From Brevundimonas subvibrioides (GTDB lineage Bacteria; Pseudomonadota; Alphaproteobacteria; Caulobacterales; Caulobacteraceae), in the NCBI GenBank assembly GCA_002280475.1, contig NCEB01000001.1:62001-126000 (forward strand): DNA of 64,000 nucleotides, read 5' to 3'. The notes under the pieces were generated by a model, which saw nothing but the letters and a program-made list of their open reading frames with translations, was not told the origin of the DNA and did not search any database. Positions 1-18,330 of the stretch are shown piece by piece (positions within the stretch are counted from its first letter, which is position 1; each line of letters opens with the position of its first letter). Both the position numbers and the translations under genes were made by a program.

Positions 1-1
1 C

Positions 2-1864
2 ACCCGGTCCTGCCTGGTGGGCCGCAACGGCGCGGGCAAGTCGACGCTGATGAAGCTGGTCATGGGCCTGATCGAGGCCGACAGCGGCGACCGCTCGGTC
101 CAGGCCGGCACCCGCTTCGCCTATGTCCCGCAAGAGCCGCTGATCGTCGGCGAGACCCTGCTCGACTACGCCACCTCGGGCGGTGCCGAGCCCTGGATGG
201 CCGAGGCCTGGCTGACCACCTTCGGCATGTCCCCCGAGAAATCCGCCAGGGGCCTCAGCGGCGGCGAGATCCGCCGCGCCGCCCTGGCCAAGGCTTTCGC
301 CGAGGAGCCCGACCTGCTGCTGCTCGACGAGCCGACCAACCACATGGACATCCTGGCCATCGAGCTCCTGGAAAAGGAGATCATCGCCGCCAAGTGCGCC
401 GCCCTGATCGTCTCCCACGACCGCGCCTTCCTGAACCGCGTGACCCAGTCCTGCCACTGGCTGGAACACCGCCGCGTCCGCACCCTGAACAAGGGCTTCG
501 ACGCCTTCGACGACTGGGCCGCCAAGGTCCAGGAAGAGGAGGCCGAGAGCCTTCGCCGCCTCAACAAGCGCATCGAGGCCGAGACCTACACCTTCTACCG
601 CTCCATCACCGCCCAGCGGACCCGCAACGAAGGCCGCGCCCGCGCTCTGGAGGCCATGCGTCAGGATCGGGCGCTCCGGGTCAAGGACATCCCCCGCGAG
701 ATCCATCTCGGCGTCGATTCCGGCGTCACCTCTGGCAAGCTGGTCGCCGACCTGAAGGGCGTGTCCAAGAGCTTCTTCTCTCCGCCCCCTGGGCGGAGAC
801 AGGCCGCAGGGCGGCCAGAGGCGGGCGAGTCCTCACCGCATGGGCCCGCCTCTGGCGGCTCCGCCGCCGGTCTCCGCCCAGCGGGCGGAGAGCTGGAGCA
901 GGGAGAGCGCGTCATCCTGAAGAACTTCACCACCCGCGTCATCCGCGGCGACCGGCTGGCCATCGTCGGCCCAAACGGCGCGGGCAAGACGACGCTCGTC
1001 AAGCTGCTGCTGGGCGAACTGGCCCCCGATGAGGGCACGATCAAGCTCGGCGCCAACCTGGAACCCGTCTACCTCGACCAGTCCCGCGAGGGCCTGAAGT
1101 CCGACATGACCCTGTGGGACGCCCTGACGCCCGGCGGCGGCGACTCCATCCTGGTGCGCGGCCACTCCAAGCACGTCGCCGCCTACGCCAAGGACTTCCT
1201 GTTCCAGGAGGGCCAGCTGCGCCAGCCGATCTCGACCCTGTCGGGCGGGGAGCGCAATCGCCTGCTGATCGCCCGCGCCCTGGCCAAGCCCGCCAACATG
1301 CTGGTGCTGGACGAACCCACCAACGACCTGGACATGGAGACGCTCGACAAGCTGGAGGAGCTGCTGGACGGCTACGACGGCACCTTGATCCTGGTCAGCC
1401 ACGACCGCGACTTCGTCGACCGCCTGGCCACCTCCACCATCGGCATGAACGGGCGCGGCGACATCGTCGAGACCCCCGGCGGCTGGACCGATTTCATCCG
1501 CCAGAACCCGGGGTTTCTGTCGAGGGACGAGGGACGAGGGTCGAGGGTCGAAGGCAAGGCGGCCCCGGTTGCTGCCACTCCGACGCCCTCTCTCGACCCT
1601 CGTCCCTCGACCCCCGGCCCTCAAAAAAAGCTCTCCTTCAAGGACCAGCACCGCCTCAAGGAGCTGGACGCCCTCATCGCCGCCCTGCCCGCCGACATCG
1701 CCGTCCACGAGGCGCGCCTGGCGGACGTGAATTTCTACAGCCGCGACCCCTCCGGCTTCGACGCGACCATGAAGGCGCTGGACGCGGCACGCGCCAAACT
1801 GGACGCCGCCGAGGAGGAGTGGCTGGAACTCGAGGCGAAACGCGAGGCCCTGGTCTCCGGCTGA
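2..1864 (+). CDS. ABC-F family ATP-binding protein (5' end outside window)
   Basis: Soluble ABC-F protein with two ATPase domains and no membrane segments; the family acts on ribosomes (translation factors or antibiotic protection). The reading frame is open to base 2, and the first Walker A (GRNGAGKST) lies at the very edge, so the N-terminus is missing. The first domain has LSGGE and LLLLDEPTNHMD; the second has GPNGAGKTT, LSGGERNR and LVLDEPTNDLD. The C-terminal 70 residues are a charged coiled coil typical of ABC-F C-terminal domains. Two low-complexity stretches are encoded by inverted repeats inserted in frame: about 42 codons between KSF and GERVIL (bases 776-901), and a Gly/Arg/Pro-rich segment at about 1519-1622 before the coiled coil. 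Which ABC-F subfamily it belongs to cannot be decided here. Confidence 0.93.
   Translation, partial: TRSCLVGRNGAGKSTLMKLVMGLIEADSGDRSVQAGTRFAYVPQEPLIVGETLLDYATSGGAEPWMAEAWLTTFGMSPEKSARGLSGGEIRRAALAKAFAEEPDLLLLDEPTNHMDILAIELLEKEIIAAKCAALIVSHDRAFLNRVTQSCHWLEHRRVRTLNKGFDAFDDWAAKVQEEEAESLRRLNKRIEAETYTFYRSITAQRTRNEGRARALEAMRQDRALRVKDIPREIHLGVDSGVTSGKLVADLKGVSKSFFSPPPGRRQAAGRPEAGESSPHGPASGGSAAGLRPAGGELEQGERVILKNFTTRVIRGDRLAIVGPNGAGKTTLVKLLLGELAPDEGTIKLGANLEPVYLDQSREGLKSDMTLWDALTPGGGDSILVRGHSKHVAAYAKDFLFQEGQLRQPISTLSGGERNRLLIARALAKPANMLVLDEPTNDLDMETLDKLEELLDGYDGTLILVSHDRDFVDRLATSTIGMNGRGDIVETPGGWTDFIRQNPGFLSRDEGRGSRVEGKAAPVAATPTPSLDPRPSTPGPQKKLSFKDQHRLKELDALIAALPADIAVHEARLADVNFYSRDPSGFDATMKALDAARAKLDAAEEEWLELEAKREALVSG
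778..892. repeat. REP-like inverted doublet, family 1, inside the ABC-F gene
   Basis: Two 49-bp arms (778-826 and 844-892) face each other across a 17-bp spacer. Each arm has an outer hairpin (CTCCGCC...GGCGGAG), a second GC-rich hairpin and a CCGCCTC/GAGGCGG inner end. The same arm occurs at 4302-4350 and, inverted, at 4742-4790. The doublet is translated as part of the ABC-F protein. Confidence 0.85.
1519..1611. repeat. Inverted repeat inside the ABC-F gene (second, unrelated family)
   Basis: The arm at 1592-1611 is the reverse complement of 1519-1545, apart from a 7-bp direct duplication (gggacga) in the left arm. It is read in frame as the linker before the C-terminal coiled coil. It shares no sequence with the doublet at 778-892. 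Confidence 0.75.
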
Positions 1865-2320
1865 GCGGATTCTGTGGACAAGCCAAATCCCTGATTCGCC
1901 GCCGCGAATCCGATCCGTCCACTGATCTTCACAGGGTTGTCCACCGAGCCCCGGGCCATGTTGCACAGCGGGGCGAGATCGAGCGCTTGCCGTCTACCGG
2001 GTTTGGCGCGAACGTCAACAGGCCGAGGGACACGGCGGCGCGGAAATCCGGTGAGAGCCGGGACTTCAAGCGGGTCGGTCCGGCTCTCTGACCAAGGGTT
2101 CCAAGCCACTTCGGTGGACGCGGAAATCCCGGGCAGGGCCCAGGCCTCAAGCCTTTAGCGTTTCGGCGCGGGGCAGACAGGAACCAGGCCGGGATCGACG
2201 AACGACGGCGCGGCGCAAGCCACACCGGACCGGCGTCGGACAGGAGCCGCCAGGATACAGCCGACCATCTCCGGGGTTCGCCTCGCGGATGCCGAAGCCA
2301 GGGTCCTGAACCTCAACGGC
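1865..2320. other. Gene-free stretch between the ABC-F gene and hicA, first part
   Basis: No reading frame here has convincing coding character or a ribosome binding site. Two sequences one base away from the DnaA box TTATCCACA or nearly so (TGTGGACAA at 1873 and TTGTCCACC at 1937) are present, but nothing else suggests an origin. No known RNA family was recognised. Confidence 0.5.
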
Positions 2321-2386
2321 CAAGTCCCAACCCGGACTTGGCGAGGGGACGCGAGTACCGGTTCGACCGGGCTTTCGTCCCCTCGC
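2321..2386. other. Two adjacent stem-loops, possible structured RNA or terminator
   Basis: A 7-bp hairpin (2321-2327 with 2334-2340) is followed directly by a longer one. In the longer one GCGAGGGGACG at 2341-2351 pairs with CGTCCCCTCGC at 2376-2386 and encloses a perfect inner hairpin (CCGGT-TCG-ACCGG, 2358-2370). A short TCAATTTT tail follows, so a terminator is possible, though the T-run is weak. Confidence 0.45.
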
Positions 2387-2400
2387 TCAATTTTGGAGTG

Positions 2401-2544
2401 GGCTATCGCTCGCGGCGCGGCCGCTCGCTGCTTGAGCCCGACCGAAGCGGGGCTACCGCTCGCGGCGCGGCCGCTCGCTGCTTGAGCCCGACCGAAGCGG
2501 GGCTACCGCTCGCGGCGCGGCCGCTCGCTGCTTGAGCCCGACCG
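2401..2544. repeat. 50-bp tandem repeat, about 2.9 copies
   Basis: Units at 2411-2460 and 2461-2510 are identical. A third, cut after 34 bases, runs 2511-2544, and the 10 bases before the first unit match the unit end with one mismatch. Each unit can fold through GCGGC-GCG-GCCGC and outer GGGCT/AGCCC arms. It ends 18 bases before the hicA promoter. Confidence 0.9.
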
Positions 2545-2561
2545 CTCCCCTGTCGTACAGC

Positions 2562-2590
2562 TTGATCGTCGCTCCTATTGTGTGTATTTA
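2562..2590 (+). promoter_or_regulatory. Candidate sigma-70 promoter of hicAB
   Basis: TTGATC (2562-2567) and TATTTA (2585-2590) are separated by 17 bp in a locally AT-rich patch. A start about 7 bases downstream would fall at or next to the GTG at 2598, so the hicA transcript could be almost leaderless. Confidence 0.5.
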
Positions 2591-2597
2591 TACGCAT

Positions 2598-2786
2598 GTG
2601 AACAGTCGCGACGTCATCAAGGCCTTGCACGCCGACGGATGGATCGAGGTTGCGCAGAGGGGTTCGCACAAGCAGTTCCGCCACCCGACCAAGACGGGGC
2701 GGGTCACCGTTCCCCATCCCAAACGCGACTTTCCGATCGCGACCCTGCGTTCAATCGAGCGTCAGGCCCAGATCAGCTTGAGGTAA
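2598..2786 (+). CDS. hicA: HicA-family toxin
   Basis: Predicted 62-residue mRNA-interferase toxin of a type II toxin-antitoxin pair. The protein has the HicA double-stranded RNA-binding fold sequence: NSRDVIKALHADGWIEV, then RGSHKQFRHP with the catalytic His of the G-S-H motif, then VTVPHPKRDFPIATLRSI. The GTG at 2598 is preferred because family homology starts there; an upstream TTG at 2532 would add residues encoded by the tandem repeat. The gene is 5 bases upstream of hicB. HicB normally neutralises HicA and represses the operon. Confidence 0.88.
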   Translation: MNSRDVIKALHADGWIEVAQRGSHKQFRHPTKTGRVTVPHPKRDFPIATLRSIERQAQISLR

Positions 2787-2791
2787 CTCGA

Positions 2792-3184
2792 ATGGCCCAG
2801 TTCATCGCCCTGATCCACAAGGACGCCGACAGCGACTATGGCGTTCATTTCCCCGACCTGCCCGGGCTGGCAACGGCCGGTGCGACGCTGGACGAGGCGC
2901 GCGCTTTCGCTGAGGAGGCTCTCGCCCTTCATCTGGAAGGTCTGGCGGAAGACGGCGAACCTGTCCCGGAACCCAGCAGCCTGGAAACGGTGATGACCGA
3001 CCCGGACAATCGCGACGGTGTCGCCATCCTCGTCCGCGCCGAGGTCCGTTCGCGCGCTGTAAGGGTCAACATCACCCTGCCCGAGGATGCCCTGCGCGAC
3101 ATCGATAGTTACGCGGAGGCACATGGTTATACTCGATCCGGCTTCCTGGCTCAGGCGGCAAAGAAGCTGATGCAGTCGGCCTGA
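2792..3184 (+). CDS. hicB: HicB-family antitoxin
   Basis: Antitoxin of 130 residues. The N-terminal part (MAQFIALIHKDADSDYGVHF, PDLPGLATAGATLDEA) is the partial RNase H-like HicB fold that binds HicA. The C-terminal part (VRVNITLPEDALRDIDSYAE, then GYTRSGFLAQAAKKL) is a ribbon-helix-helix DNA-binding domain, so the protein should autoregulate the operon. The ATG at 2792 is the first start in frame after the hicA stop. Confidence 0.9.
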   Translation: MAQFIALIHKDADSDYGVHFPDLPGLATAGATLDEARAFAEEALALHLEGLAEDGEPVPEPSSLETVMTDPDNRDGVAILVRAEVRSRAVRVNITLPEDALRDIDSYAEAHGYTRSGFLAQAAKKLMQSA

Positions 3185-3251
3185 GATCGCTTTTCCCGCG
3201 GGCCAAAGCGTCGCCTTCCCTTCCCCCTTCCCGACCCCTATCGTCCGGGCC

Positions 3252-4286
3252 ATGCCGCCTCCCGCGACTCACAGCCTCGTCAGCCGCCGCCTTCTGCTGG
3301 TGGGCGGCGTTGCCGTCACCGCCATGGGTCTGGCGTCATGCTCGGGCTCCGAGGCCCCCGTCGATGACCAGGGCCGGGTCCGCATCCGGTTCGCCACCGA
3401 CTGGCGCGCCCAGGCCGAGCACGGCGGCTTCTACCAGGCGCTGGCGTCCGGGGCCTATGAGCGGCGCGGGCTGAACGTCCAGATCATCCAGGGCGGACCC
3501 GGCGTGAACGTGCCCCAGTTGCTGGCGGCCGGCGCGGTGGAGCTCGGCATGGGCTCCAACAGCTTCATCCCCCTGAACCTCGTGGCCGAAGGCGCGCCGG
3601 TGAAGGCCGTCGCCGCCTTCTTCCAGAAGGACCCCCAGGTCCTGATCGCCCACCCCGACCCGGCGCTGGAGACCATCGCCGACCTAACCGGGCGCCCGTT
3701 CCTGCTGGCCGACGCCTCCATCACCGCCTTCTGGGTCTGGCTGAAGGCCAAATACGGCTTCACCGACGACCAGGTCCGCAAATACAACTTCAACCCCGCC
3801 CCCTTCATCGCCGACGAACGCGCGGTCCAGCAGGGCTATCTGACCTCAGAGCCCTATACGATCCAGAAGGAGGCCGGCTTCGAGCCCCGCGTCTTCCTGC
3901 TGGCCGACGAGGGCTATCCCTCCTACGCCACCATGGTCCTGGCGCCGGACGGCTTCGCCCGGGACAACGCCACGGCCCTGCGCTCCTTCATCGCCGCCTC
4001 GGCCGAGGGCTGGCGCGACTATATGCGGGGCGACCCGGCCGCCGCCGACGCCCTGATCCGCCAGGCCAACCCCGAGATGACGCAGGACGTGCTCGACCAG
4101 GCCCGCGCCAAGCTCAGCGAATACGGCATCGTCGACGGTGGAGACGCCGCCCTGTATGGTCTCGGGACCATGACCCTCGACCGCTGGCGCGCCTTCTTCG
4201 AGGTGACCAGCCAGTCCGGCGTCTATCCGCTGGACCTGCGCTGGCGCGACGCCTTCACCGACGCCTTCCTGCCCGGCCGTGGCTAG
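3252..4286 (+). CDS. ABC transporter substrate-binding lipoprotein (NMT1/THI5-like)
   Basis: Periplasmic solute receptor of 344 residues. The N-terminus has twin arginines and a hydrophobic core, then a lipobox ending LASC, so it is probably a lipoprotein. The mature part (VRIRFATDWRAQAEHGGFYQ, GLNVQIIQGGPG, AVELGMGSN) matches the NMT1/THI5-like group that binds thiamine precursors, riboflavin, nitrate or sulfonates. The substrate cannot be read from the sequence. It was probably once followed directly by the ATPase at 4735 and permease at 5529, but a DUF559 cassette now lies between them. Confidence 0.88.
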   Translation: MPPPATHSLVSRRLLLVGGVAVTAMGLASCSGSEAPVDDQGRVRIRFATDWRAQAEHGGFYQALASGAYERRGLNVQIIQGGPGVNVPQLLAAGAVELGMGSNSFIPLNLVAEGAPVKAVAAFFQKDPQVLIAHPDPALETIADLTGRPFLLADASITAFWVWLKAKYGFTDDQVRKYNFNPAPFIADERAVQQGYLTSEPYTIQKEAGFEPRVFLLADEGYPSYATMVLAPDGFARDNATALRSFIAASAEGWRDYMRGDPAAADALIRQANPEMTQDVLDQARAKLSEYGIVDGGDAALYGLGTMTLDRWRAFFEVTSQSGVYPLDLRWRDAFTDAFLPGRG

Positions 4287-4301
4287 ATTTTCCACTACCG
4301 G

Positions 4302-4350
4302 CTCTCCGCCCCCTGGGCGGAGACAGGCGGCGAAGCCGCCAGAGGCGGGC
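4302..4350 (+). repeat. REP-like arm, family 1 (left)
   Basis: The 49-bp palindrome-rich arm starts CTCTCCGCCCCCTGGGCGGA and ends GAGGCGGGC. It begins 15 bases after the stop codon of the binding-protein gene. Confidence 0.85.
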
Positions 4351-4373
4351 CCGTTCTCGCACCCCCATCCCTC

Positions 4374-4730
4374 ATGAACCCCGACCCGGAAGCCCTCCAC
4401 CGTGCCCGCACTCTGCGAAAGTCCATGTCGACGCCCGAGGCCGCGCTGTGGAACTGGCTCCGCGACAAACGCCTGAACGGGCTGAAGTTCCGCCGCCAGC
4501 ACCCGCTCGGCCCCTACATCCTCGACTTCTATTGCGACGCCGCCCGCCTGGCCGTCGAGGTCGACGGCGGGACGCATCATGAAGAGGCGCAGGCGGCTCA
4601 CGATGCTAGGCGCGATCGATGGCTGGCGGAGCAGGGTGTCCGAACGCTACGGGTTTCGGCCGGGTGGGTTCGTCGGGACTTGGCGGGGTTGCTGCAGCAT
4701 ATCGCGCAGGCCGCCGAGGCAGGACGGTGA
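4374..4730 (+). CDS. DUF559 domain protein, Vsr-like/PD-(D/E)XK endonuclease fold
   Basis: Protein of 118 residues made of one DUF559 domain, a family related to very-short-patch-repair and restriction-type endonucleases. It has TPEAALWNWLRDKRL near the N-terminus, FRRQHPLGPYILDFYC, and the putative metal site D51 and E62-V-D64 in AVEVDGGTHH. No signal peptide or membrane segment is seen, and no clear ribosome binding site precedes the ATG. It lies wholly between inverted REP-like arms. Nuclease function is inferred from the family; a DNA repair role unrelated to the repeats is the alternative. Confidence 0.85.
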   Translation: MNPDPEALHRARTLRKSMSTPEAALWNWLRDKRLNGLKFRRQHPLGPYILDFYCDAARLAVEVDGGTHHEEAQAAHDARRDRWLAEQGVRTLRVSAGWVRRDLAGLLQHIAQAAEAGR

Positions 4731-4734
4731 GGCG

Positions 4735-5532
4735 ATGACGGGCCCGCCTCTGGCCGCTGCGCGGCCTGTCTCCGCCCAAGGGGCGGAGAGCTGTATCTCG
4801 CGGCTGGATCAGGCCGTGGTCCGCTACGCCGACCGGCCCGCGCTCGGCCCCCTGACCCTTGCCGTCGCCCCCGGCGAGATCGTCGCCCTGGTCGGGGCGT
4901 CAGGCGCGGGCAAGTCCACGGCCCTGCGGCTGCTCGCGGGACTGGAGGCTCCCGCAGAGGGATCGGTCCAGCGCCCCGCCCAGCCGAACGCCACCGGCTT
5001 CGTGTTCCAGAGCCCGACCCTGATGCCCTGGGCCGACGCCCGGACCAACGTCGCCCTGCCGCTGGAGCTGTCCGGCGTCCCGGCCGCCGAGGCCCGCCAC
5101 CGCGCCGATCTGGCCCTCGCCGCCGTGGGCCTGGGCGACCGGACCACCGCCCGCCCGCGCCAGCTGTCCGGCGGCATGGCCATGCGCGTGTCCCTCGCCC
5201 GGGCCCTGTCGATCCGTCCCGAGCTCCTGCTGCTGGACGAGCCGTTCGCGGCGCTGGACTCGATCACCCGACGCGGCCTGATCGAGGACCTGCACCGGCT
5301 GTGGGCCGAGCGTCCCCTGGCCATGGTCTTCGTGACCCACGACGTCGAGGAGGCCGCCTATCTGGCCGGCCGCGTGGTCGTGCTGTCCGCCGCCGACGGC
5401 CGCGCCGTCGCCGACGTGCCCATGCCCGGCCCTCTGCCCAGGCCCGAGGGCTGGCGGCGCGACCCCGCCTTCCGCGACGCCGTCGAGGCGGTGGCCAGTG
5501 GCCTGTCTCACGCCATGCCGGTCGCCGCATGA
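4735..5532 (+). CDS. ABC transporter ATP-binding protein (nitrate/sulfonate/thiamine-precursor type)
   Basis: Cytoplasmic ATPase of 265 residues. Walker A is GASGAGKST, the Q-loop lies in VFQSPTLMPWADA, the signature is QLSGGMAMR, Walker B is LLLLDEPFAALD and the switch His is in VFVTHD. The first 20 residues (MTGPPLAAARPVSAQG...) are encoded by the right arm of the DUF559 cassette and look unlike the family; the original start may have been the GTG at 4816. The stop overlaps the permease start by 4 bases (ATGA), indicating coupled translation. Confidence 0.88.
   Translation: MTGPPLAAARPVSAQGAESCISRLDQAVVRYADRPALGPLTLAVAPGEIVALVGASGAGKSTALRLLAGLEAPAEGSVQRPAQPNATGFVFQSPTLMPWADARTNVALPLELSGVPAAEARHRADLALAAVGLGDRTTARPRQLSGGMAMRVSLARALSIRPELLLLDEPFAALDSITRRGLIEDLHRLWAERPLAMVFVTHDVEEAAYLAGRVVVLSAADGRAVADVPMPGPLPRPEGWRRDPAFRDAVEAVASGLSHAMPVAA
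4742..4790 (-). repeat. REP-like arm, family 1 (right), inside the ATPase 5' end
   Basis: This 49-bp arm is inverted relative to 4302-4350. It begins 4 bases after the ATPase ATG and is therefore translated. Confidence 0.85.
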
Positions 5533-6290
5533 AGCGCCTGATCGACGCCCTGCCCGCCTTGCTGCTGACCGCCCTTCTCCTGGGCGGCTGGGAGGCCGCC
5601 TGCCGCCTGCTGGAGGTCCCCGTCTACTTCCTGCCCCCGCCCAGCGCCGTGGCCGTCGCCCTGGTCGAGAACGCGCCCGTGCTTGCGGGTTCGGCGCTCC
5701 AGACCTTCTGGATGGCCTTCCAGGCGCTGATGGTGGCGACCGTCCTGGGCGGCGGCCTGGCCATAGCCGTCTCGCTCAGCCGGCCGGCGGAACAGGCCGT
5801 GGCTCCTCTGGCTGTCGCGTTGCAGGTCACGCCGATCGTCGCTATCGCGCCCCTGGTGCTGATCTGGGCGGGGCTGGATCACGCCGACCGGGCGGTGATC
5901 GCGCTGGCCGCCGCCGTGGCCTTCTTCCCCGTCTTCTCCGGCGTCCTGACCGGGCTGAAATCGGCCGATCCGGATCTGGAACGGCTGTTCGACCTGCACA
6001 GCGCGACCCCGCTTCAGCGTCTGACCCGGCTGCGGCTGCCCTCGGCCCTGCCCTTCGCCCTGGAGGGGGTTCGCGTGGCCGCCGGACTGTCGGTGGTGGG
6101 GGCGGTGGTGGCCGAGTTCGTGTCCGGCTCGGGCGCCACCCAGGGCCTGGCCTGGCGCCTGCTGGAGGCCGGCAATCGCCTGCGCACAGCCGAGCTTCTG
6201 GCGGCCCTCGTCTGCCTCGCCATCCTGGGTCTGATGCTCAACGCCGCGACCACCGCGATCCAGCGGCGCGTGCTGGCGTCACGGGCCTGA
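5529..6290 (+). CDS. ABC transporter permease (BPD transport, SsuC/ThiX-like)
   Basis: Inner-membrane permease of 253 residues with about six hydrophobic segments, the first directly after MKRLIDALP. The cytoplasmic EAA-type loop that docks the ATPase is around LFDLHSATPLQRLTRLRLPS, followed by LPFALEGVRVAAGLSVVGAV, typical of the nitrate/sulfonate/taurine permease group. Third gene of the importer. The ATG at 5529 overlaps the ATPase stop. Confidence 0.88.
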   Translation: MKRLIDALPALLLTALLLGGWEAACRLLEVPVYFLPPPSAVAVALVENAPVLAGSALQTFWMAFQALMVATVLGGGLAIAVSLSRPAEQAVAPLAVALQVTPIVAIAPLVLIWAGLDHADRAVIALAAAVAFFPVFSGVLTGLKSADPDLERLFDLHSATPLQRLTRLRLPSALPFALEGVRVAAGLSVVGAVVAEFVSGSGATQGLAWRLLEAGNRLRTAELLAALVCLAILGLMLNAATTAIQRRVLASRA

Positions 6291-6304
6291 GGCCTTAACC
6301 CGCG

Positions 6305-6319
6305 TTAGCCCCGGGTTAA
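6305..6319. promoter_or_regulatory. Possible CtrA-like site upstream of the exported proline-rich protein
   Basis: TTAG-N7-TTAA, one base from the Caulobacter CtrA consensus TTAA-N7-TTAA, with another TTAA at 6295. It lies 52 bases before the TTG start at 6371. The match is short and could be chance. Confidence 0.25.
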
Positions 6320-6370
6320 GCCGCGCTCCGCTACGCTGAAAGCCAGTCCCTCACGGACCGGAGCTCCGCC

Positions 6371-7243
6371 TTGGCCGTCACGCCGACAGACCCCGCCCAG
6401 CGTCGACCGAGCCGGCGGACGCGGCTCGCGCTCGCGGCCGCCGCCGTGGGCCTGACGGTGGCGGGCACGGCTCAGGCCCAGCACGCCGCGCCGACCGGGC
6501 CGCGCTACCTGTCCTGGGCCAATCGCACGACCTCGACGACGCCCGCCGACATCGCCGCCGCCCGCGTGCGCCGGGACATCATTCCGCGCCGCGTCGCCCC
6601 GTCCCGGAGCCTGGCCCGCCCGGCGATGCAGCCGTTCAATCCGCCGATGCCGGTCACGGACGGCGGCCTGACCCCCGCCAGCGCCTGGATCGGACCGCGC
6701 GTCGCCCCAGCCTTCGCGCCCGGCGTGCCCGACCCCCTGTCCTACGCCACCACCGAAATGGCGGCCGCCCCGGTCCGCGCCCCACCGCCCGCACCCGTCA
6801 CCCCGGTTCGCGCAGAGCCCGCGCCGCCCCCGCCGCCTGCATCTTCGATGGTCCAGCCGACCTACGCGTCGGCCCCGCCGCCCTCCTCGGCGGACGGCGA
6901 CCCGATCGCTCCGCGTCGCGACGCGCCCATCTTCCGGCTCCAGTCCCAGCGCGCCGCCGCCGACGGCGCAGCGGTCCAGCCCCCGCGCGAGACCACCGAG
7001 GCCGCTCCAGTCCAGCTGAGCCCGGCCCCGACCATGGCCCCCGCCTCCGGCCAGCCCCAGGCCCGGTACTATTCGGTGCACCGCGCCGCCGGCCGCCAGC
7101 CCGATCCGACGGTGATCCCAGAGCCCGTCTTCTTCGACAGCGTGGCGCTGGATCTTGCCGCGCCTCCGGACATCCAGCAACCCACGCGCGATGCCCAGGG
7201 CCGACGCGCACCGGTCCCCAACGCCGATCCGAGCCTGCCATGA
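6371..7243 (+). CDS. Exported proline/alanine-rich protein of unknown function
   Basis: Protein of 290 residues starting at TTG, with GGAG at a usual distance upstream. A Sec signal peptide is clear (RRTRLALAAAAVGLTVAGTA, then AQA). The mature chain is rich in Pro and Ala, with a run of prolines around residues 137-160, and has no recognised domain; a disordered periplasmic protein is likely. It overlaps the DUF2336 gene by 4 bases (ATGA), so the two are translated together and may share a role. Confidence 0.7.
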   Translation: MAVTPTDPAQRRPSRRTRLALAAAAVGLTVAGTAQAQHAAPTGPRYLSWANRTTSTTPADIAAARVRRDIIPRRVAPSRSLARPAMQPFNPPMPVTDGGLTPASAWIGPRVAPAFAPGVPDPLSYATTEMAAAPVRAPPPAPVTPVRAEPAPPPPPASSMVQPTYASAPPPSSADGDPIAPRRDAPIFRLQSQRAAADGAAVQPPRETTEAAPVQLSPAPTMAPASGQPQARYYSVHRAAGRQPDPTVIPEPVFFDSVALDLAAPPDIQQPTRDAQGRRAPVPNADPSLP

Positions 7244-8352
7244 GCGACGTCGAGACGATGGAGCCGGTCGAGACCGGGTCGCGCCTGCCGGACCTGATCC
7301 TGCTGGCCCAGGAGCAGTCCTCCGAAAAGCGCCGCGCCCTTCTGCGCGAACTGACCGAACACTTCTTCGGGGCGGCCCACAGAAGCGCCGCCGAGGACGC
7401 GCTTTACGATTCCGTCCTGACCGACCTGACCGCCGAGATGGAGACCGCCGTCCGTGCCGAGCTGTCGGCGCGCTTCGCCCTGTCGCCCGACGCGCCGCGT
7501 GGCTTGATTCGCCGCCTGGCCAATGACGAGGTGGCCGTGGCCGAGGCGGTGCTGCGCGCCTCCACCGTCCTGACCGACGACGACCTGCTGGGCGTCGTCC
7601 GCTCCAAGGGCCAGGCTCATCTGAAGGCCGTGTCCGAACGAGCGACCGTGTCCGAGGCGGTGTCCGAGATCATCGTCCAGCGCGGCGACGACGACACCTT
7701 GGGCAGTCTGTTGCGAAACGACGGCGCCCGCCTCTCGCGCGCCGCCACCGAGACTGCCGTCGAACGCGCCAAGGCCAATCCGGCCTTGCACGCCGCGACG
7801 GTGGAACGCACGGCCCTGCCGCCCGACCTGCTGAACGAGATGTATTTCGTGGTCGAGGCCCGGTTGCGTCAGCGCATCCTGGAACAGAACGCCGCCATGG
7901 ACCCGGTCCTGCTGGAAAGCGCCCTGGCCGCCGGGCGCGCCCGGGTCGCCACCGATGACGGCGCCCTGCCGGCCGACTACGCCGAGTGCCTGGCCTATGT
8001 CGAGGAACTGAAGGCCGCCAACCAGCTGAGCCCGACCATGCTGGCCCGCTTCCTGCGCTCGGGCAGCCGCACGTCCTTCCTGATCGCCCTGGCCCAGCTG
8101 GCCGACGTGGACTTCCACACCGCCAGCTCGATCGTCGAGAAGAAGGAGCTGGATGCGCTCGCCGTGGTCTGCAAGGCCGCCGACCTGGACCGCGCCCTGT
8201 TCCTGACCTTCGCCGTGGTCATCCTGAACGCCGAGGACAACGCCATGGGCAAGGCCCACAGCTACGCCAAGCTGTATGCTGAACTGCAGCGCGACGCGGC
8301 CATGCGCACGCTCAGGTTCTGGCGCCTGCGGCGAGGCGCGGAGGCGGCGTAA
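7240..8352 (+). CDS. DUF2336 domain protein
   Basis: Predicted cytoplasmic, largely helical protein of 370 residues matching DUF2336, an uncharacterised alphaproteobacterial family. Recognisable parts are LPDLILLAQEQSSEKRRALL at the start, the repeat-like helices around VAEAVLRASTVLTDDDLLGV, and a C-terminal half with FLIALAQLADVDFHTASSIV. It is coupled to the exported protein upstream. A second, diverged DUF2336 gene lies at 9107-10339 beyond mucR. No molecular function is known to me. Confidence 0.8.
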   Translation: MSDVETMEPVETGSRLPDLILLAQEQSSEKRRALLRELTEHFFGAAHRSAAEDALYDSVLTDLTAEMETAVRAELSARFALSPDAPRGLIRRLANDEVAVAEAVLRASTVLTDDDLLGVVRSKGQAHLKAVSERATVSEAVSEIIVQRGDDDTLGSLLRNDGARLSRAATETAVERAKANPALHAATVERTALPPDLLNEMYFVVEARLRQRILEQNAAMDPVLLESALAAGRARVATDDGALPADYAECLAYVEELKAANQLSPTMLARFLRSGSRTSFLIALAQLADVDFHTASSIVEKKELDALAVVCKAADLDRALFLTFAVVILNAEDNAMGKAHSYAKLYAELQRDAAMRTLRFWRLRRGAEAA

Positions 8353-8357
8353 AGCTT

Positions 8358-8498
8358 CATCCTCCCCCGAGTAGCGAAGCGAAACGGGGGAGGGGGACCG
8401 CGAAGCGGTGGAGGGGGCGGCTCCAGACACGGTGTGCGCGCTCGCGCCCTCCACCATCCTTCGGATGGTCCCCCTCCCCCGCGATGCGTGGGAGGATG
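8358..8498. repeat. REP-like inverted doublet, family 3
   Basis: Arms 8358-8418 and 8444-8498 are inverted copies across a 25-bp spacer. Each is built as CATCCTCCC, a hairpin, GGGGGAGGGGGACC, a second hairpin and GGTGGAGGG. It fills the gap between two convergent genes (stops at 8352 and 8509) and could end transcription from both sides. It carries no gene. Confidence 0.8.
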
Positions 8499-8508
8499 TC
8501 TCGCTAGT

Positions 8509-8952
8509 CTACTTCTTCGCGCGGACGGTCCGGGCCGGCTTACGGCCGCCCTGTCCCAGTCCCATCTGCTTGGCCAGTTCCGACCGGGCCTTGGCGTAGT
8601 TCGGGGCGACCATGGGGTAGTCCTTGGGCAGGCCCCACTTGGCGCGGTATTCTTCGGGGCTCATGTCGTATTTGGTGCGCAGGTGACGCTTCAGCGACTT
8701 GAACTTGCGGCCGTCTTCCAGACAGATCAGGAAATCCGGGCTGATCGACTTGCGGATCGGCACCGCGGGCTCTTTCGGCTCGGGCGTGGCTTCGACCGCG
8801 CCGGTCGAGACCTGGGACAGCGCCGCGTGGATATTGGCGATCAGGCCCGGCAGTTCGCCCGCCGCGACGCTGTTGTTGCCGACATAGGCCGAGATGATGT
8901 CGGCGGTCATTTCCAGCAGTTCGGAGCGATCTTCGATTCTTGCGGCGTCCAC
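8509..8952 (-). CDS. mucR: MucR/Ros family transcriptional regulator
   Basis: DNA-binding regulator of 147 residues. The N-terminal oligomerisation region ([20 protein letters not shown]) is followed by the Ros/MucR zinc finger, where CLED replaces the classical C-x2-C and the distal ligands lie in [17 protein letters not shown], then [15 protein letters not shown]. In Caulobacter, MucR proteins act with SciP in cell-cycle control of CtrA targets. The GTG at 8952 is chosen because family similarity starts there and AGGA lies just upstream; an in-frame start at 9030 would add 26 atypical residues. Confidence 0.9.
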
Positions 8953-9076
8953 GGGTTTTTCCTTGCCTAGACTTGTCGCGCTGTGGCGATTGAGCTTTCG
9001 GCTGATAATGACGTTCGTTGCCGAACGCAATGCTTCGTCTTCAACAGTCTGCGGTGAATAGGCGCGCGCCTTTGCC

Positions 9077-9088
9077 TGACTATAGTCA
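9077..9088. promoter_or_regulatory. Perfect palindrome upstream of mucR
   Basis: TGACTATAGTCA lies in the gap between mucR and the downstream end of the second DUF2336 gene. On the minus strand it contains TTGACT, which could be a -35 element, so it may be an operator of mucR. No matching -10 at ideal spacing was found. Confidence 0.3.
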
Positions 9089-9106
9089 AGGCGCGGGATC
9101 GCCAGA

Positions 9107-10339
9107 TCAGCGGCCGAAGTTTTCCGCCAGGGCCATCATGGCCGCGCGTTCGGGTGCCGAGTATTGATCCAGCGCGTCTTCGTCACCGTCGCGGATCGCC
9201 TTCATCAGGGCCGGAGACATGGCCGACGACAGCGACCAGTTCCAGTAACGCAGAACCGTCTGGGCCCGATCGACCGCCAGCATCTCATAGGTGACCTGAA
9301 CCCGGGCCCAGTCCGGATCCGGCCGACCATCAGGCGTGGTCTCGGGCCGGCGCACCGAGCGCCACAGATGCTCCAGGTCCAGCCTGGACATGCCCGTGGC
9401 CTTGCACAGGATGGCCAGGGGCTCCCCGCCCTTGTCGCCCATGATCTTTGCGCCGGTCAGCGGCTTGATGCCGGCCAGATAGGCGATCTCGGCGGCCAGT
9501 TCGGGGTTCAGGCCCGCCTTGGCGGCCTCCGCCACCGCATGTTCCAGACTGTCGTAGGGGCTCTTCTCGATGGCCGCGCGGTTCCTCTGGCGGCGCTCGA
9601 TGAACTGCAGCGCCTTCCTGGCCACCGGGTCCTGCCAGTTCTCCTCGGCGGCCATGGCGAAGACGTCCTCGGACACCTCCTGCAGCACCTCACGGCTGAC
9701 CGCGAACCTCTGCAGGATCGTCCGGCGCTCCTCGTCACCGCACCACCAGAACATCACATAGGCCCCGGAAGGCCGCAGCTCCGGCCGCTTCAGCAGATGC
9801 GGACACAGGTCCGGACTGGTCCGGCTGAGGCTGACGATCGCCTCGATGCCCGGCTGGGACAGCCGCGCCGTGGGGTTTCTCAGAACCGCCTCGATCACCG
9901 GCGACTCGTCGAAGGCGATCAGGCTCTCGGTGACCACCTCCGACAGGCCACGACGGCTGGCCATCAGAAAGCGGTGCTCGGTCCCCGTGTCGGCGGCACA
10001 GGCGCACAGGTCGGCGTCGGTCAGGGCCACGCATCCCTCGATCAGGATGCCCGCGATCGCCGGCTCGTCCCTCAGCAACATGCGCGCCAGGCTGTTGGGC
10101 AGTTCGGCCAGGGGCGTCAGACGCGTGGCGACACGCTTTCTCTCCTGGGGCGAGGCCAACCGTAGCATCTCGACCAGCAGGTCGCCCGTCACCGCGCGCT
10201 CGAAGGCGTTCACCCGGCTGGCCGGCAGCGACACGACATCGGCCAGCCGCTTCAGCAGCGCCTGGCGCGAGCGGAACACCGCGGTCGGGGCCTCTTGCGC
10301 CAAGGCCTCAGAGGATTGGACGGGGGCCGGATCGGACAT
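9107..10339 (-). CDS. DUF2336 domain protein (second copy)
   Basis: Predicted cytoplasmic protein of 410 residues with the DUF2336 layout: [20 protein letters not shown] at the N-terminus, [20 protein letters not shown], then a helical C-terminal part around [20 protein letters not shown]. It is clearly diverged from the 370-residue protein at 7240. It precedes mucR on the same strand, with about 155 bases between them. Function unknown. Confidence 0.78.
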
Positions 10340-10420
10340 GTCGATGGTCAGGCTAAGCCCGGCGGGTTAACCGGCGGTGACGGTCAAGGGACCGGTGGTG
10401 GCACCGGTGGGAGGCGTTCG

Positions 10421-11398
<978 letters not shown>

Positions 11399-11659
11399 CG
11401 GGGGCTCCGGCAGGGCGAGGGAATTCGCGTGCGAACAGTCTGAAAGGTCTGAAATCGTCGCCCGAGAACCCTTCCGGCCGGGGCGCAAAAAGGACATAGG
11501 GCGATAGCTGCGAGGTGCAACAGCGGCCGTGAACCAATAAAGCGTGGCCGCGTTTGGCACACGCGGCGACGGGCGCATAGCGCCGCAAGGGGGTCGTCAC
11601 TGCTGGACCAGACTGCACACCGCGACCAACGAACGGACTTCCTCGGCGACACCGGCGAG

Positions 11660-12142
11660 ATGGCCGAGCGGATTCGCACGCATGACTGGTCCGACACGCC
11701 TCTGGGTCCGATCGAGGGCTGGCCGCAGAGCCTGAAGACCGTCGTCGGCATGATGGTCGCGGCCCCGAATCCGATGGTCCTGCTGTGGGGTCAGGCCGGC
11801 ACGCTGATCTACAACGACGGCTATGCCCGTTTCGCCGGCCGCCGGCACCCCGAGCTTCTCGGCATGGGGGCCCGCGAAGGCTGGCCCGAGATCGCCGACT
11901 TCAACGACACCAACATTCGTCGCGCCCTGGCGGGCGAGGCCTGGTCGCTGAAGGATCAGGAACTGACCCTGGACCGCCGCGGTTCGCCCGAGCCGACATG
12001 GCTGGACCTCGACTATGTCCCGGTCGGCGACGAAAGCGGACGGCCTGCGGGCCTGATCGTCTTCGTGACCGAAACCACCGATCGAGTTCAGGCAGAGCGC
12101 CGTGTCAGGGAAGAGGCCGAGCGCCAGCGCCAGATGCTGTAG
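11660..12142 (+). pseudogene. N-terminal PAS part of a hybrid histidine kinase, cut off by an amber codon
   Basis: Encodes 160 residues that read as the first PAS-type sensor domain of a cytoplasmic kinase (HDWSDTPLGPIEGWPQSLKT, then WGQAGTLIYNDGYARFAGRR). The frame ends at TAG 12140-12142 in RQML-stop-QMPGFAAIL and continues in the same frame into the kinase at 12146. A one-base change from CAG (Gln) or GAG (Glu) explains the stop. Homology to the PAS start extends somewhat upstream of the ATG at 11660, where no standard start exists; a CTG at 11600 with AAGGGGG before it is conceivable. Confidence 0.7.
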
Positions 12143-12145
12143 CAG

Positions 12146-14089
12146 ATGCCGGGCTTCGCCGCCATTCTGAGCGGGCCGAAACACCGCTTCGACTACGTCA
12201 ACAATGCCTATCGCACCCTCGCCGGCGACCGGCCGTTGGTCGGGCTGACGGTGCGCGAGGCCCTGCCTGACGTCGAGGGACAAGGCTATTTCGAACTGCT
12301 GGACGAGGTTTATCGGACGGGCGAGCGTTTCGTCTCCCGCAGCCAGTCCGTCAGCCTGAACCGGGAGGACGGCGAACGGGTCGTCGATCTGCTCTACGAA
12401 CCGATCCGCGACGCCTCGGGCCAGGTGACCGGCATCTTCGTCGGTGGCTATGACGTCACCGAGGCGCACGCCGCTCAGTCCGCCCTCTTCACGAGCGAGG
12501 CCCGGTATCGTCGGTTGTTCGACATCATCGACGAAGGCTTCTGCGTCATCGAATTCATCGATGGCCCGGACGGCCCGCTCAGCGACTATGTGCATGTCGA
12601 AGCCAACCCGGCCTTCAGGACAAACGCCGGAATCCCCGACATCGTCGGCAAGCGCCTGAGGGAGATCGTCGGCGACGAGGCGGACAGTTGGCTGGAACTC
12701 TACAGGGGTGTTCTGGAAAGCGGCCGCCCCACGCGCTTCCAGAAGGAGCTGAAACAGACCGGCCGCTGGCTGGAGCTCGCGGCCTTTCCGATCAACGAAC
12801 CGGGTCGGCACCAGGTCGCGGTCCTGTTCAAGGACCTGACCGACAAGATGCGCAACGAGCGGGAGCTTCAGACCCTCAACGCCACCCTCGAGGAGCGGGT
12901 CGCCGAACGCACGGCCGACTTGATGCATGCCGAGGAGGCCCTGCGCCAGTCCCAGAAGATGGAGGCGATCGGACAGCTTACAGGGGGGATCGCCCACGAT
13001 TTCAACAACCTGCTGGCGGGCATCTCGGGCAGTCTGGAGCTGATCGAAAAGCGCATGGCCGAGGGGCGGCTCGCGGGGATGGACCGCTACATCCAGGCCG
13101 CCCAGGGTGCCTCGCGCCGCGCCGCGACCCTGACGCAGCGCCTGCTGGCCTTCTCGCGGCGCCAGACGCTGGATCCCAAGCCGACCGACGTGAACCGCCT
13201 GGTGGCCGGGATGGAAGACCTGATCCGGCGCAGCGTGGGTCCGGACGTCCGGGTCGAGGTCGAGGCGGCCGCGGGTCTGTGGGCAACCCATATCGATCCG
13301 TCGCAGCTGGAGAACGCCCTGCTGAACCTGTGCATCAACAGTCGCGACGCCATGGCCCCGAACGGGGGGCGGCTGACCATCCGCACTTACAATGTGGCGC
13401 TCGACAGCAGCGAGGCGCGCTTGCGCGATCTGCCGCCCGGCGACTACGTCAAGCTGTCGGTCACCGACACCGGCGGCGGCATGACGCCCGAGATCGCGTC
13501 CAAGGCCTTCGACCCCTTCTTCACGACCAAGCCTATCGGCCAGGGCACTGGCCTTGGGCTGTCGATGATCCACGGCTTCATGCGGCAGTCCGGCGGTCAG
13601 GTGCGGATCGAGACGGAGCCGGGACAGGGCACGACCATCACCCTGGCCCTGCCCCGCTGGACCGGATCGGACGCCACCGAAGACGCCCCCGTCGCCGAGA
13701 CCGTCGTCGAGGAACAGGGCCAGGGCGAGACCGTCCTGGTCATCGACGACGAGGAGACGGTGCGCATGCTGGTCGTCGAGGTGCTGGAGGACGCCGGCTA
13801 TGTCGCGCTTCAGGCGGCCGACGGTCCGGCGGGGCTGGCCATCGTGAACTCCGACACGCGCATCGACCTGCTGATCTCGGACGTCGGCCTGCCCGGCGGC
13901 ATGAACGGGCGACAGGTCGCCGACGCGGCACGGACGGCGCGGCCGGGGCTGAAGGTGCTGTTCATCACCGGCTATGCGGAAAACGCCGTGGTCGCGGGCG
14001 ACACCCTGGAGCCCTGGATGGCGGTCATGACCAAGCCGTTCCAGGTCGCCGCCCTGGGAACGCGCATTCGCGAGATGATCGAGGGCTGA
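12146..14089 (+). CDS. Hybrid sensor histidine kinase (PAS-PAS-HisKA-HATPase-REC), separated from its N-terminus
   Basis: Soluble 647-residue kinase. It starts inside a PAS domain (residues 1-110), has a second PAS (about 115-235), a coiled coil, a HisKA domain with phospho-accepting H284 in GGIAHDFNNLLAG, and a HATPase with LLNLCINSRDAM, DTGGGM and GQGTGLGLSM. A C-terminal receiver (ETVLVIDDEETVRMLVVEVL, acceptor Asp in LLISDVGLPGG, then Lys in MTKPF) completes it. The ATG at 12146 follows the in-frame TAG directly, so the piece may be made by reinitiation, lacking the first sensor domain. No partner regulator is adjacent. Confidence 0.85.
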   Translation: MPGFAAILSGPKHRFDYVNNAYRTLAGDRPLVGLTVREALPDVEGQGYFELLDEVYRTGERFVSRSQSVSLNREDGERVVDLLYEPIRDASGQVTGIFVGGYDVTEAHAAQSALFTSEARYRRLFDIIDEGFCVIEFIDGPDGPLSDYVHVEANPAFRTNAGIPDIVGKRLREIVGDEADSWLELYRGVLESGRPTRFQKELKQTGRWLELAAFPINEPGRHQVAVLFKDLTDKMRNERELQTLNATLEERVAERTADLMHAEEALRQSQKMEAIGQLTGGIAHDFNNLLAGISGSLELIEKRMAEGRLAGMDRYIQAAQGASRRAATLTQRLLAFSRRQTLDPKPTDVNRLVAGMEDLIRRSVGPDVRVEVEAAAGLWATHIDPSQLENALLNLCINSRDAMAPNGGRLTIRTYNVALDSSEARLRDLPPGDYVKLSVTDTGGGMTPEIASKAFDPFFTTKPIGQGTGLGLSMIHGFMRQSGGQVRIETEPGQGTTITLALPRWTGSDATEDAPVAETVVEEQGQGETVLVIDDEETVRMLVVEVLEDAGYVALQAADGPAGLAIVNSDTRIDLLISDVGLPGGMNGRQVADAARTARPGLKVLFITGYAENAVVAGDTLEPWMAVMTKPFQVAALGTRIREMIEG

Positions 14090-14164
14090 CGGCGCGTCGG
14101 AACCTCTGCGGTGACTGGCGTGTTTCCCAGCCGACCGTTTCAAGCTTTGCCGAGAGACCTGCTC

Positions 14165-14914
14165 ATGACCCGCCGCCTCGCCGTCCTCGCCGCCGCCCTG
14201 GTGGCCACCTCGGGCCTCGCGGCCTGCGCCTACAACGACACCCTGGGGCGCAACCAGCTGATCCTGGCCGATCCGGGGGCGCTGAACCAGCAGTCCGAGG
14301 CCGCCTGGCAGGAGTTGCTGCGCACCCAGAACCCGGCGCGGACGGGGGCCCAGGTCGATCGCATCCGCCGCGTCGGCGACCGCCTGGTCCAGGCGGCCGG
14401 GCTGTCGAACCGGGCCTGGGACTATGCGGTGTTCAACAGCCAGAGCCCCAACGCCTTCGTCCTGCCGTCGGGCAAGATCGGCGTGACGACCAGCCTTCTG
14501 GCGCTCGTCCAGAACGACGATCAGCTGGCCACGGTGATCGGTCACGAGATGGGTCACGTCGTCGCCCAGCACGCGGCCGAGCGCGCCTCGTCCACCGCCC
14601 TGACCAACCTGGGCCTGTCGGTGGCGCAGGGGGTGGCGGGGTCGCGGGGCCAGACGGTCGGATCGTTCGGCGGCATCGCCGCGCAGTATGGCCTGCTCCT
14701 GCCCCACTCGCGGCGCGACGAGCTGGAGGCCGACCGCCTGGGCGTGGACTATATGAACGCCGCCGGTTTCCGCCCCTCCCAGGCCGTCGCCCTGTGGCGG
14801 CTGATGGCCCAGCAGCGCCAGTCCGGCCAGCCCGAGTTCGCCTCGACCCATCCGTCGGACGCGACCCGGATCGCGCAGCTGGAGGCCTATATCGCCCAGC
14901 AGGGATGGTCGTGA
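14165..14914 (+). CDS. M48 family zinc metalloprotease, lipoprotein
   Basis: Envelope protease of 249 residues resembling LoiP/BepA-type M48 enzymes that act on outer-membrane proteins. The N-terminus is a lipoprotein signal ([19 protein letters not shown]). The zinc site is HEMGH in [13 protein letters not shown], with the third ligand Glu in DELEADRLG downstream. The ATG at 14165 is chosen because the signal peptide begins there; an alternative start at 14111 adds an unlikely leader. Single gene between the kinase and fliI. Confidence 0.9.
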
Positions 14915-14936
14915 CCGCGGCGGACTTCACGCCTCG

Positions 14937-14961
14937 TTAACCACGGCGGCCCAAAGGTTAA
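14937..14961. promoter_or_regulatory. Inverted TTAACC half-sites upstream of fliI (CtrA-like)
   Basis: TTAACC (14937-14942) and GGTTAA (14956-14961) face each other just before the TTG start of fliI at 14991. TTAACC resembles half of a CtrA site, and early flagellar genes in Caulobacter are CtrA-controlled. The spacing is not the standard N7, so this is tentative. Confidence 0.3.
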
Positions 14962-14990
14962 CGCCTCCCGATCCCCGAGGCCGTCGCCCC

Positions 14991-16331: not shown

Positions 16332-16344
16332 CCGGAGATTTCGC

Positions 16345-16755
16345 ATGACCGCCTGGGCTCATTCCCTGATCCGCATCTCCAACTACGAGGTCGAGACGCT
16401 GCAGAAGCGCCTGGCCGAGATCACCGCTCGCAAGGCCTCTGCCGAGATGCGACTGGCGGTGCTGGACGCCGAGGTCGAGGTCGAGAACGAACGCGCCCGC
16501 GCCGACGCGGAAGCCGGCCTTCTGCTGCAGGCCTACCTCGCGGGCTGGAAGGCCAAGAAGGGCGCGGCCGAGGCCGATCTGGTCACGCTGGACGCCGAGG
16601 AAGAAGGGGCCCGCGACGCCCTGACCGACGCCTATTCGGAGCTGAAGAAGTTCGAGCACGTCGCCGAAACCACCCGCCTGAACGCCCTCATCGCCGCCGG
16701 CCGACGCGAAACGGCGGCGTTCGACGAGATGGGGCTGAGGCGCAGAGCCGGCTGA
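16345..16755 (+). CDS. fliJ: Flagellar export protein FliJ
   Basis: Coiled-coil stalk protein of 136 residues that works with FliI in flagellar export. The chain is almost wholly charged heptad sequence (YEVETLQKRLAEITARKASA, then AEVEVENERARADAEAG), as expected for FliJ, whose sequence is poorly conserved. Position directly after fliI supports the name. The stop codon lies 3 bases before the left arm of the second DUF559 cassette. Confidence 0.85.
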   Translation: MTAWAHSLIRISNYEVETLQKRLAEITARKASAEMRLAVLDAEVEVENERARADAEAGLLLQAYLAGWKAKKGAAEADLVTLDAEEEGARDALTDAYSELKKFEHVAETTRLNALIAAGRRETAAFDEMGLRRRAG

Positions 16756-16758
16756 ACC

Positions 16759-16815
16759 TCTCCCTCCCCTTCATGGGGAGGGACGGCGAAGCGCAGCGAA
16801 GCCAGGGTGGGGTCC
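16759..16815 (+). repeat. REP-like arm, family 2 (left)
   Basis: Outer hairpin TCCCTCCCC-TTCAT-GGGGAGGGA, then a GCGAAGCGCAGCGAAGC stem and GGTGGGGTCC. The end of the arm offers a GGTGGGG Shine-Dalgarno-like stretch for the DUF559 ATG at 16818. Confidence 0.85.
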
Positions 16816-16817
16816 GA

Positions 16818-18268: not shown

Positions 18269-18330
18269 CACCGGCGAGCATGGCTGGAGTTGATGCTCGC
18301 GCGGTCACGATCGTTGCCCGACCCAGCGAT

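Follow-up and report, generated by a model that had tools for sequence, protein, structure and literature searches.

How does a small gene of the DUF559 family come to stand alone between inverted repeats inside an ABC importer operon of Brevundimonas subvibrioides, and is the arrangement a mobile element? Here, we explored this question starting from one locus in the window, i.e., the whole 64,000-nucleotide stretch of DNA analysed, the numbering of which is used throughout. A repeat search identified inverted arms of 70 nt, 86% complementary, at 4301–4370 and 4722–4791, and local alignment of both arms yielded a 60-nt core at 90% identity; the element itself spans 4302–4790, with the left arm at 4302–4350 on the forward strand and the inverted right arm at 4742–4790 on the reverse strand. 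The sole listed ORF (at least 60 aa) wholly between the arms, at 4374–4730 on the forward strand, encodes 118 aa and scores 109.9 bits with PF04480 (DUF559), the cut-off of which is 20.6, and its profile matches comprised DUF559 and MTES_1575, with no others. To the left lies the gene for an NMT1/THI5-like binding protein (3252–4286, forward strand), assigned by profile match and by comparison with empty alleles, and to the right are those for the ABC ATPase (4735–5532, forward; ORF list, profile match and allele comparison) and, in the same operon, the ABC permease (5529–6290, forward; profile match). Thus, the preliminary description was correct in that the arms enclose a DUF559 gene only and split an importer operon, with the binding protein upstream and the ATPase and permease downstream. 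Because the ATPase ATG is at 4735, the right arm is translated as the ATPase N-terminus, such that the start of this gene is now read through the repeat.

The profile matches of the enclosed ORF include no Y1 HUH transposase beside these repeats, no known transposase was found at the locus, where DUF559 is the only enclosed listed ORF, and positions 1–20000 of the window gave no Rfam match, self-splicing introns included, at the gathering score, the gene being alone between the arms. Allowing 1 mismatch, we counted 4 copies of the arm core GGCGGAGACAGGC in the window against 0.33 expected, two in the element and two in a gene-less doublet at 777–893. In a bracket test for inverted flanks, 1 of the 1697 tiles of this genome scored at least 60 (the same at 40), and this tile, at window position 4400, is the element itself. 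Between the doublet and the binding-protein gene, at 2532–3184, are two small ORFs which we take to resemble a HicA/HicB toxin-antitoxin pair.

Both arms are predicted to fold alike, each forming two hairpins with an unpaired tail behind them. In the left arm, delineated by repeat search, alignment, mirror match and fold, hairpin 1 occupies 4303–4323, hairpin 2 4326–4340 and the gene-facing tail AGAGGCGGG 4341–4349; in the right arm, which overlaps the ATPase N-terminus and was delineated in the same way, hairpin 1 lies at 4769–4789 and is accompanied by hairpin 2 and, again facing the gene, a mirror tail. The stems of hairpin 2 differ between the arms (GGCGGC/GCCGCC vs GGCCGC/GCGGCC), with changes on both sides that preserve pairing. 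Hairpin 1 has its purine strand on the 3′ side, and the tail mirrors this strand (GGGCGGAGA / AGAGGCGGG), with a match of 9/9 in each of the two arms, and other arm families display the same relation with different letters (GGGGAGAAGG / GGATGAGGGG and GCGGGGGAGG / GGAGGGGGCG). Across 207 arms, the mirror match (0.774) exceeded the direct match (0.720), shuffled tails (0.632) and the outer side (0.603), and among 163 asymmetric stems, mirror prevailed over direct with p = 4e-11. A mirror tail can fit the hairpin as a third strand, which is the TM motif, and, judged by sequence, each arm, a pyrimidine/purine hairpin with a tail mirroring its 3′ strand, resembles the published PIT/TM repeat type. 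A G-quadruplex as the shared function of the tails was rejected, given that four G3 runs are missing from families such as CCTTCTCCCC / GGATGAGGGG, in which the mirror relation is nevertheless intact.

The REP hairpins of the REP/RAYT system adjoin a GTAG/CGTC tag (cf. the title of PMC3733652), which is absent from the two arms of the element, where the hairpins start with GGCTCTCC and AGCTCTCC. The initial naming of the arms as REP-like stands with respect to inverted doublets in many copies and a gene between them, as in the L001 family, but not with respect to the tag, and the resemblance is to PIT/TM triplex repeats. The published TM consensus, CCCTCNCCCN3-6GGGNGAGGGN3GGGNGAGGG, is likewise not matched by the arms of the element (TCTCCGCCC); its hairpin part has 42 matches elsewhere in the same genome. 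Hoyne and Maher reportedly treated PIT/TM intrastrand-triplex repeats in earlier papers (2000, 2002), and knowledge of these repeats in E. coli goes back to 2000. The later study of Holder et al. 2015 gives the TM motif in more than 260 genomes, with 23 sites in E. coli, and triplex formation in vitro in single strands only, with none in duplex DNA or by in vivo footprint (PMC4666352). A text search of that paper returned no mention of DUF559 or “endonuclease”, and no link between DUF559 and triplex repeats was found in the literature searched, which included no preprints and few subscription journals.

What could the encoded protein do? A model built with homologues reached a pLDDT of 89 and was used instead of the single-sequence AlphaFold model, which was all-helix and poor (pLDDT 64); the underlying alignment kept 57 of 64 rows, L235 being left out for a stop codon and L216, L231, L237, L242, L268 and L272 by choice. 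Foldseek matched the model to the DUF559-like protein 3hrl (3e-7), to I-Bth0305I (3r3p; 7e-5) and, more weakly, to 1vsr (0.04), and a sequence profile recovered 3hrl at 5e-38 and I-Bth0305I at 8e-5. E22, E62, D64 and H68 are invariant in the 57 sequences, and D51 nearly so. Thus, the DUF559 protein is predicted to adopt a PD-(D/E)XK fold like that of the homing endonuclease I-Bth0305I. An earlier survey treats YcjD as a PD-(D/E)XK member with a profile that finds Vsr (PMC1189080), and another paper files one DUF559 gene under EDxHD (PMC9403480). In Caulobacter, a DUF559 protein, VsrA, has been proposed to be a Vsr mismatch-repair enzyme, and a methyltransferase mutant requires it to mount an SOS response (PMC12907096), so that members of the DUF559 family are able to act on DNA in vivo. 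In Legionella, repeated segments carrying a transposase and DUF559 are described as recombination hotspots (PMC12308824).

Relatives differ at the site of the element. Among 30 genomes (own included), 3 carry the complete arm-DUF559-arm arrangement, 3 a solo arm and 22 an empty site; of the other two, one has a different insert and one is without the ATPase at this place. The empty alleles which the preliminary description had proposed to look for thus exist. In a tree of the binding proteins (29 of the 30 rows; L139 absent), the occupied sites fall in one starred clade together with two empty members and, therefore, gain, loss or exchange recurs. The doublet at 777–893 (no strand assigned), composed of two convergent arms of the same family without a gene, forms an in-frame insert in an ABC-F ORF (17–1864) and is missing from each of the 29 relatives compared, of which at least 5 have other inserts at that linker. 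These other inverted-repeat inserts (window ~770–905; L147–L150, L152), like the one read in frame here, identify the ABC-F linker as an insertion-tolerant hotspot. Syntenic comparison yielded further doublets with empty alleles.

Comparison of elements at unrelated sites delimits the unit. The pairs L045/L046 and L046/L053 are 85–86% identical from outer arm edge to outer arm edge, within ~3 nt, and their flanks are unrelated. For 31 non-independent pairs in which core identity was at least 80%, both flanks were common in 12, one in 7 and neither in 12. By eye, a target duplication was readable in 2 of ~7 events (TCAT and CTCAT); each lies where two genes overlap at ATGA, a setting in which selection could impose the duplication.

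The association of DUF559 with inverted arms is widespread. Profile searches detected DUF559 in 59 of the 61 genomes of the window's genus, with 1–9 matches per genome, in 90 of 119 genomes of the family and in 80 of 241 of the class, weak matches being counted in the class. We compared 175 loci, none chosen for arms: 37 from this genome and its genus, 28 from the family, 30 from the class (the best-scoring of each search) and 80 from a broad set, the best 80 of 581. An arm lies within 300 bp in 160 of these 175 best-scoring loci, including 36 of the 37 from own genome and genus, and 115–116 have arms on both sides, such that relatives do carry inverted arms at their DUF559 genes, as the preliminary description had anticipated. 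The pairing extends beyond Brevundimonas and Caulobacter, which it had named for the comparison: the broad set (the best 80 of 581) spans 13 named phyla, with 52 loci from Pseudomonadota, and each phylum includes at least one locus with an arm.

The arms are concentrated at the gene, with densities of 3.47, 4.13, 2.85 and 3.61 per kb near DUF559 in the own-plus-genus, family, class and broad sets, respectively, against 0.33, 0.23, 0.04 and 0.16 per kb more than 600 bp away, a 10- to 75-fold difference. Inverted flanks at a bracket score of at least 40 were recorded for 119 of 170 loci (32/36 own plus genus, 19/27 family, 15/30 class and 53/77 broad); the class set is weaker, with arms on both sides of 10 loci and 5/28 at a score of at least 60. 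Length or proximity to a contig edge removed 7 of 95 rows from the test at 60 and 5 of 175 from that at 40. The nearest arms of the 175 loci are oriented (+,−) in 86, (−,+) in 9, (+,+) in 13 and (−,−) in 8, with 44 loci one-sided and 15 armless; that is, 86 of 116 two-armed loci are convergent, with the tails toward the gene.

Only ~3 of 1270 tiles from relatives reached 40 on the bracket test, and this near-zero rate, together with the low density in the far flanks, led us to reject chance or general REP crowding. Weak DUF559 domains, mostly in longer Actinobacterial ORFs, were bracketed at this score in 0/20, with a weak arm match within 1.2 kb in 4/20, and stand-alone Actinobacterial DUF559 genes had an arm in 4/4 and a score of at least 40 in 0/4. 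A Cyanobacteriota set (the phylum group of the Gastranaerophilales record L215, the Actinobacterial set being that of L272) had an arm in 27/29 and reached 40 in 18/29; a second search of 10 genomes for extra copies, at loci partly found before, gave 16/17 and 8/17, respectively. Sequence length or a contig edge excluded 2 of the 19 extra-copy rows, 2 of the 6 rows of stand-alone Actinobacterial genes and 4 of the 24 weak Actinobacterial rows. Taken from the side of the repeats, 1.13 Mb from 11 genomes of the genus held 121 arms and 29 doublets, along with 6 convergent pairs of similar arms 260–3000 bp apart; DUF559 occupies 5 of these 6 gene-sized pairs, the 5 representing two sites (in 3 and 2 genomes), and in the sixth an ordinary gene is flanked by a lone arm on one side and a doublet on the other.

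Within the window's genus, the arm family follows the DUF559 clade. A tree of 36 loci required 5–6 changes of arm class, against a mean of 15 and a minimum of 12 in 200 label shuffles, which treat same-site loci of sister species, present among these loci, as independent; a single genome may hold several arm families. The tree of 157 loci required 46 changes against a shuffled mean of 79 and a minimum of 72. In the broad set (best 80 of 581), the signal is weak, with 28 changes against a shuffled mean of 31.6 and 5 of 200 shuffles as low; the arm classes are coarse, and the upstream arm was taken where two arms differ. At the level of whole genomes, at least one TM hairpin was found in 49 of the 58 class genomes with strong DUF559 (E < 1e-15) vs 28 of the 183 others (p = 4e-22 in a Fisher test that makes no correction for kinship or G+C), and 9 of the 58 had no copy of the one TM hairpin searched. 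Conversely, G201 has 20 TM hairpins and no DUF559 match, and 6–28 TM hairpins without a strong DUF559 match occur in G181, G201, G285, G290, G336, G360, G372 and G374; such genomes may have lost the partner or may harbour another mover.

This genome contains 7 DUF559 genes by PF04480 search; inverted arms of several families surround all 7 by eye and 6 of 7 at a score of at least 60, and L003 and L006 have an extra arm in direct orientation between the DUF559 gene and the inverted arm. The second such element in the window (16761–17218, forward strand) has arms of another family at 16761–16783 (+) and 17198–17218 (−) and a DUF559 domain at 16845–17162, and a probable gene-less pair of a third family lies at 8393–8495 (no strand assigned), shorter in G045. 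Gene-less arm pairs, or REPIN-like doublets, are common. The L001-family pattern CCTTCTCCCCNNNNGGGAGAAGG (at most 2 mismatches) occurs 47 times forward and 52 times in reverse in the genome, with 0 for the backwards control, which amounts to ~50 hairpins because near-palindromes tend to count on both strands. In 20 stretches around these hairpins, we found 19 convergent pairs and 2 solo hairpins, the pairs being spaced 131–175 bp start to start (131–142 in 16 of 19); one further pair, 472 bp apart, encloses the DUF559 gene L001. An inner end like that of the L001 unit (TGAAACTCGGTCT...) is present on at least one side of 8 of 13 doublets, beating 99 or all of 100 shuffles. The L111 doublet retains 69 nt of the L001 unit, start codon included, with 51/69 identical, and was therefore derived from a gene-bearing unit.

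Other repeat insertions were encountered along the way. Doublet families with inverted tandem-heptamer arms, e.g., (GAGTGGC)n and (GGGAGTA)n, occur in G030, G045, G416, G016 and G433, with empty alleles in relatives. In G045, a 476-bp insertion (L189:10439–10916), absent at window positions 16318–16344, carries a 23S_rRNA_IVP gene (PF05635, 4e-36) between inverted short-repeat arms of the TAGGGTCTAGGTTCTAGGG type and looks like an analogous second pairing of gene and repeat.

In E. coli MG1655, TM_ECO 9 lies ~168 bp off the 3′ end of ycjD, a DUF559 gene; the probability that one of 23 TM sites falls so close, calculated post hoc, is ~0.004. A degenerate arm or hairpin abuts ycjD on its 3′ side, and beyond it a 39-nt near-repeat of the ycjD 3′ end adjoins TM_ECO 9 (L194:5321–5465) and is probably the remnant of a second copy. 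At least 80% of the ycjD region is covered in 3333 of 5426 E. coli genomes, and in the two ycjD-lacking genomes examined (L375 and L376; fabI-sapF interval), efflux-pump genes beside sapF take the place of the MG1655 ycjD/TM segment. With both TM_ECO 9 and the degenerate hairpin on the 3′ side and efflux genes at the site in these two genomes, ycjD as a clean element was not upheld.

We consider it likely that the arm-DUF559-arm arrangement is a minimal mobile element of the REP/RAYT kind, run by a PD-(D/E)XK nuclease that would cut the arms and also move them in trans, in line with the original proposal that DUF559 may substitute for RAYT, which gains support from clade-specific pairing, arm-to-arm homology in unrelated flanks and the remnant-bearing doublet. 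The grounds are comparative, namely, pairing, specificity, breadth, boundaries at the arm edges, polymorphic sites, the doublet with a gene remnant and the predicted fold, and it is from these that we infer arm cutting, movement in trans and the strand mechanism. The unit would comprise ~0.45–0.55 kb, with ends made of a hairpin and a mirror tail able to act as a third strand, and its sole protein would be a Vsr/I-Bth0305I-like nuclease. This nuclease would recognise arms of its own family, probably folded while single-stranded in replication or repair, and cut at or near them, whereupon host repair would copy or paste either the unit or an arm pair lacking the gene into another place; doublets and solo arms would be non-autonomous products, as REPINs are for RAYTs. 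For a PD-(D/E)XK nuclease acting alone, no chemistry of transposition is known to us. More tentatively, and at slightly under an even chance in our judgement, the elements may form a class of transposable elements in many phyla that does without DDE, HUH, serine or tyrosine recombinases, in which one nuclease of the Vsr/homing type would recognise ends that fold into triplexes and, aided by host repair, mobilise both itself and large families of doublets without a gene, the PIT/TM repeats of E. coli being remnants.

Alternatively, the arms and doublets could spread by other means, such as replication slippage or another enzyme, with DUF559 cutting gene-less cognate pairs and its gene being copied in by gene conversion through arm homology. 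We regard this ectopic homing as improbable, although the solved structures nearest to the protein are 3hrl, from the DUF559 family, and that of a homing endonuclease, some genomes are rich in TM hairpins without strong DUF559, doublets and the gene-bearing unit of one family coexist, and homology ending at the arms is what gene conversion between arms would also produce. However, wholly arm-free sites are common (22/30), TM hairpins are far rarer in genomes without strong DUF559, the L111 doublet came from a gene-bearing unit, as its retained gene sequence indicates, and no other mover of the arms is known to us.

A reading of DUF559 as a Vsr-like host nuclease for repair or mismatches, with the arms serving as terminators or insulators unrelated to its function, is very improbable: the part played by C. 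crescentus VsrA in a methylation-linked DNA damage response (PMC12907096) and the presence of Vsr among the fold matches speak for it, but DUF559 matches number 1–9 per genome in 59 of 61 genomes of the genus, at changing sites, arms track the DUF559 clade within the genus and the same arms also form gene-less doublets. Finally, a passive association, whereby REP-rich intergenic spots happen to take in small genes, as the 23S_rRNA_IVP gene between other inverted repeats in G045 and the only two independent sites behind the 5 DUF559 genes in 6 gene-sized pairs might suggest, is scarcely credible given that hardly any random tile is bracketed, that longer Actinobacterial ORFs with a DUF559 domain lack such flanks, and that arm and gene clades agree within the genus.

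The mobile-element reading assigns a likely role to DUF559, which Pfam still labels “unknown function”, and a clade-matched nuclease between the repeats provides a testable answer to the question of who spreads triplex repeats. PIT/TM repeats are described by Holder et al. as a hairpin with a mirror third-strand tail, found in inverted pairs in Enterobacteria, Cyanobacteria and others; the arms are built and paired in this manner, and in E. coli TM_ECO 9 has ycjD as a neighbour. Unlike them, the arms of the element have a stem C, which should make a triplex less stable, and a second hairpin as loop, and, whereas Holder et al. report no mobility gene near the E. coli sites (PMC4666352), DUF559 is tied to the repeats here. 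EDxHD/Vsr-like homing endonucleases, such as I-Bth0305I, share the nuclease fold (Foldseek E 7e-5, profile E 8e-5), but no intron was found at window positions 1–20000, folded inverted repeats flank the gene and gene-less derivatives exist, which suggests how a homing-type nuclease could drive small intergenic repeats. IS elements with MITEs likewise combine inverted ends, autonomous and internally deleted copies and empty sites; by contrast, the elements described here have no known transposase and possess ends of a putative hairpin/triplex type, with a target duplication readable in just those 2 of ~7 events. The REP/REPIN-RAYT (TnpA-REP) system shares the palindromic inverted doublets in many copies, as in the L001 family, one or a few nuclease genes between the same repeats and clade-specific pairing. 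The arms of the element differ in having a mirror tail and no GTAG/CGTC tag, and the enzyme is a PD-(D/E)XK DUF559 protein rather than an HUH Y1 transposase, so that the logic of REP and RAYT would be served by a second, unrelated enzyme family.
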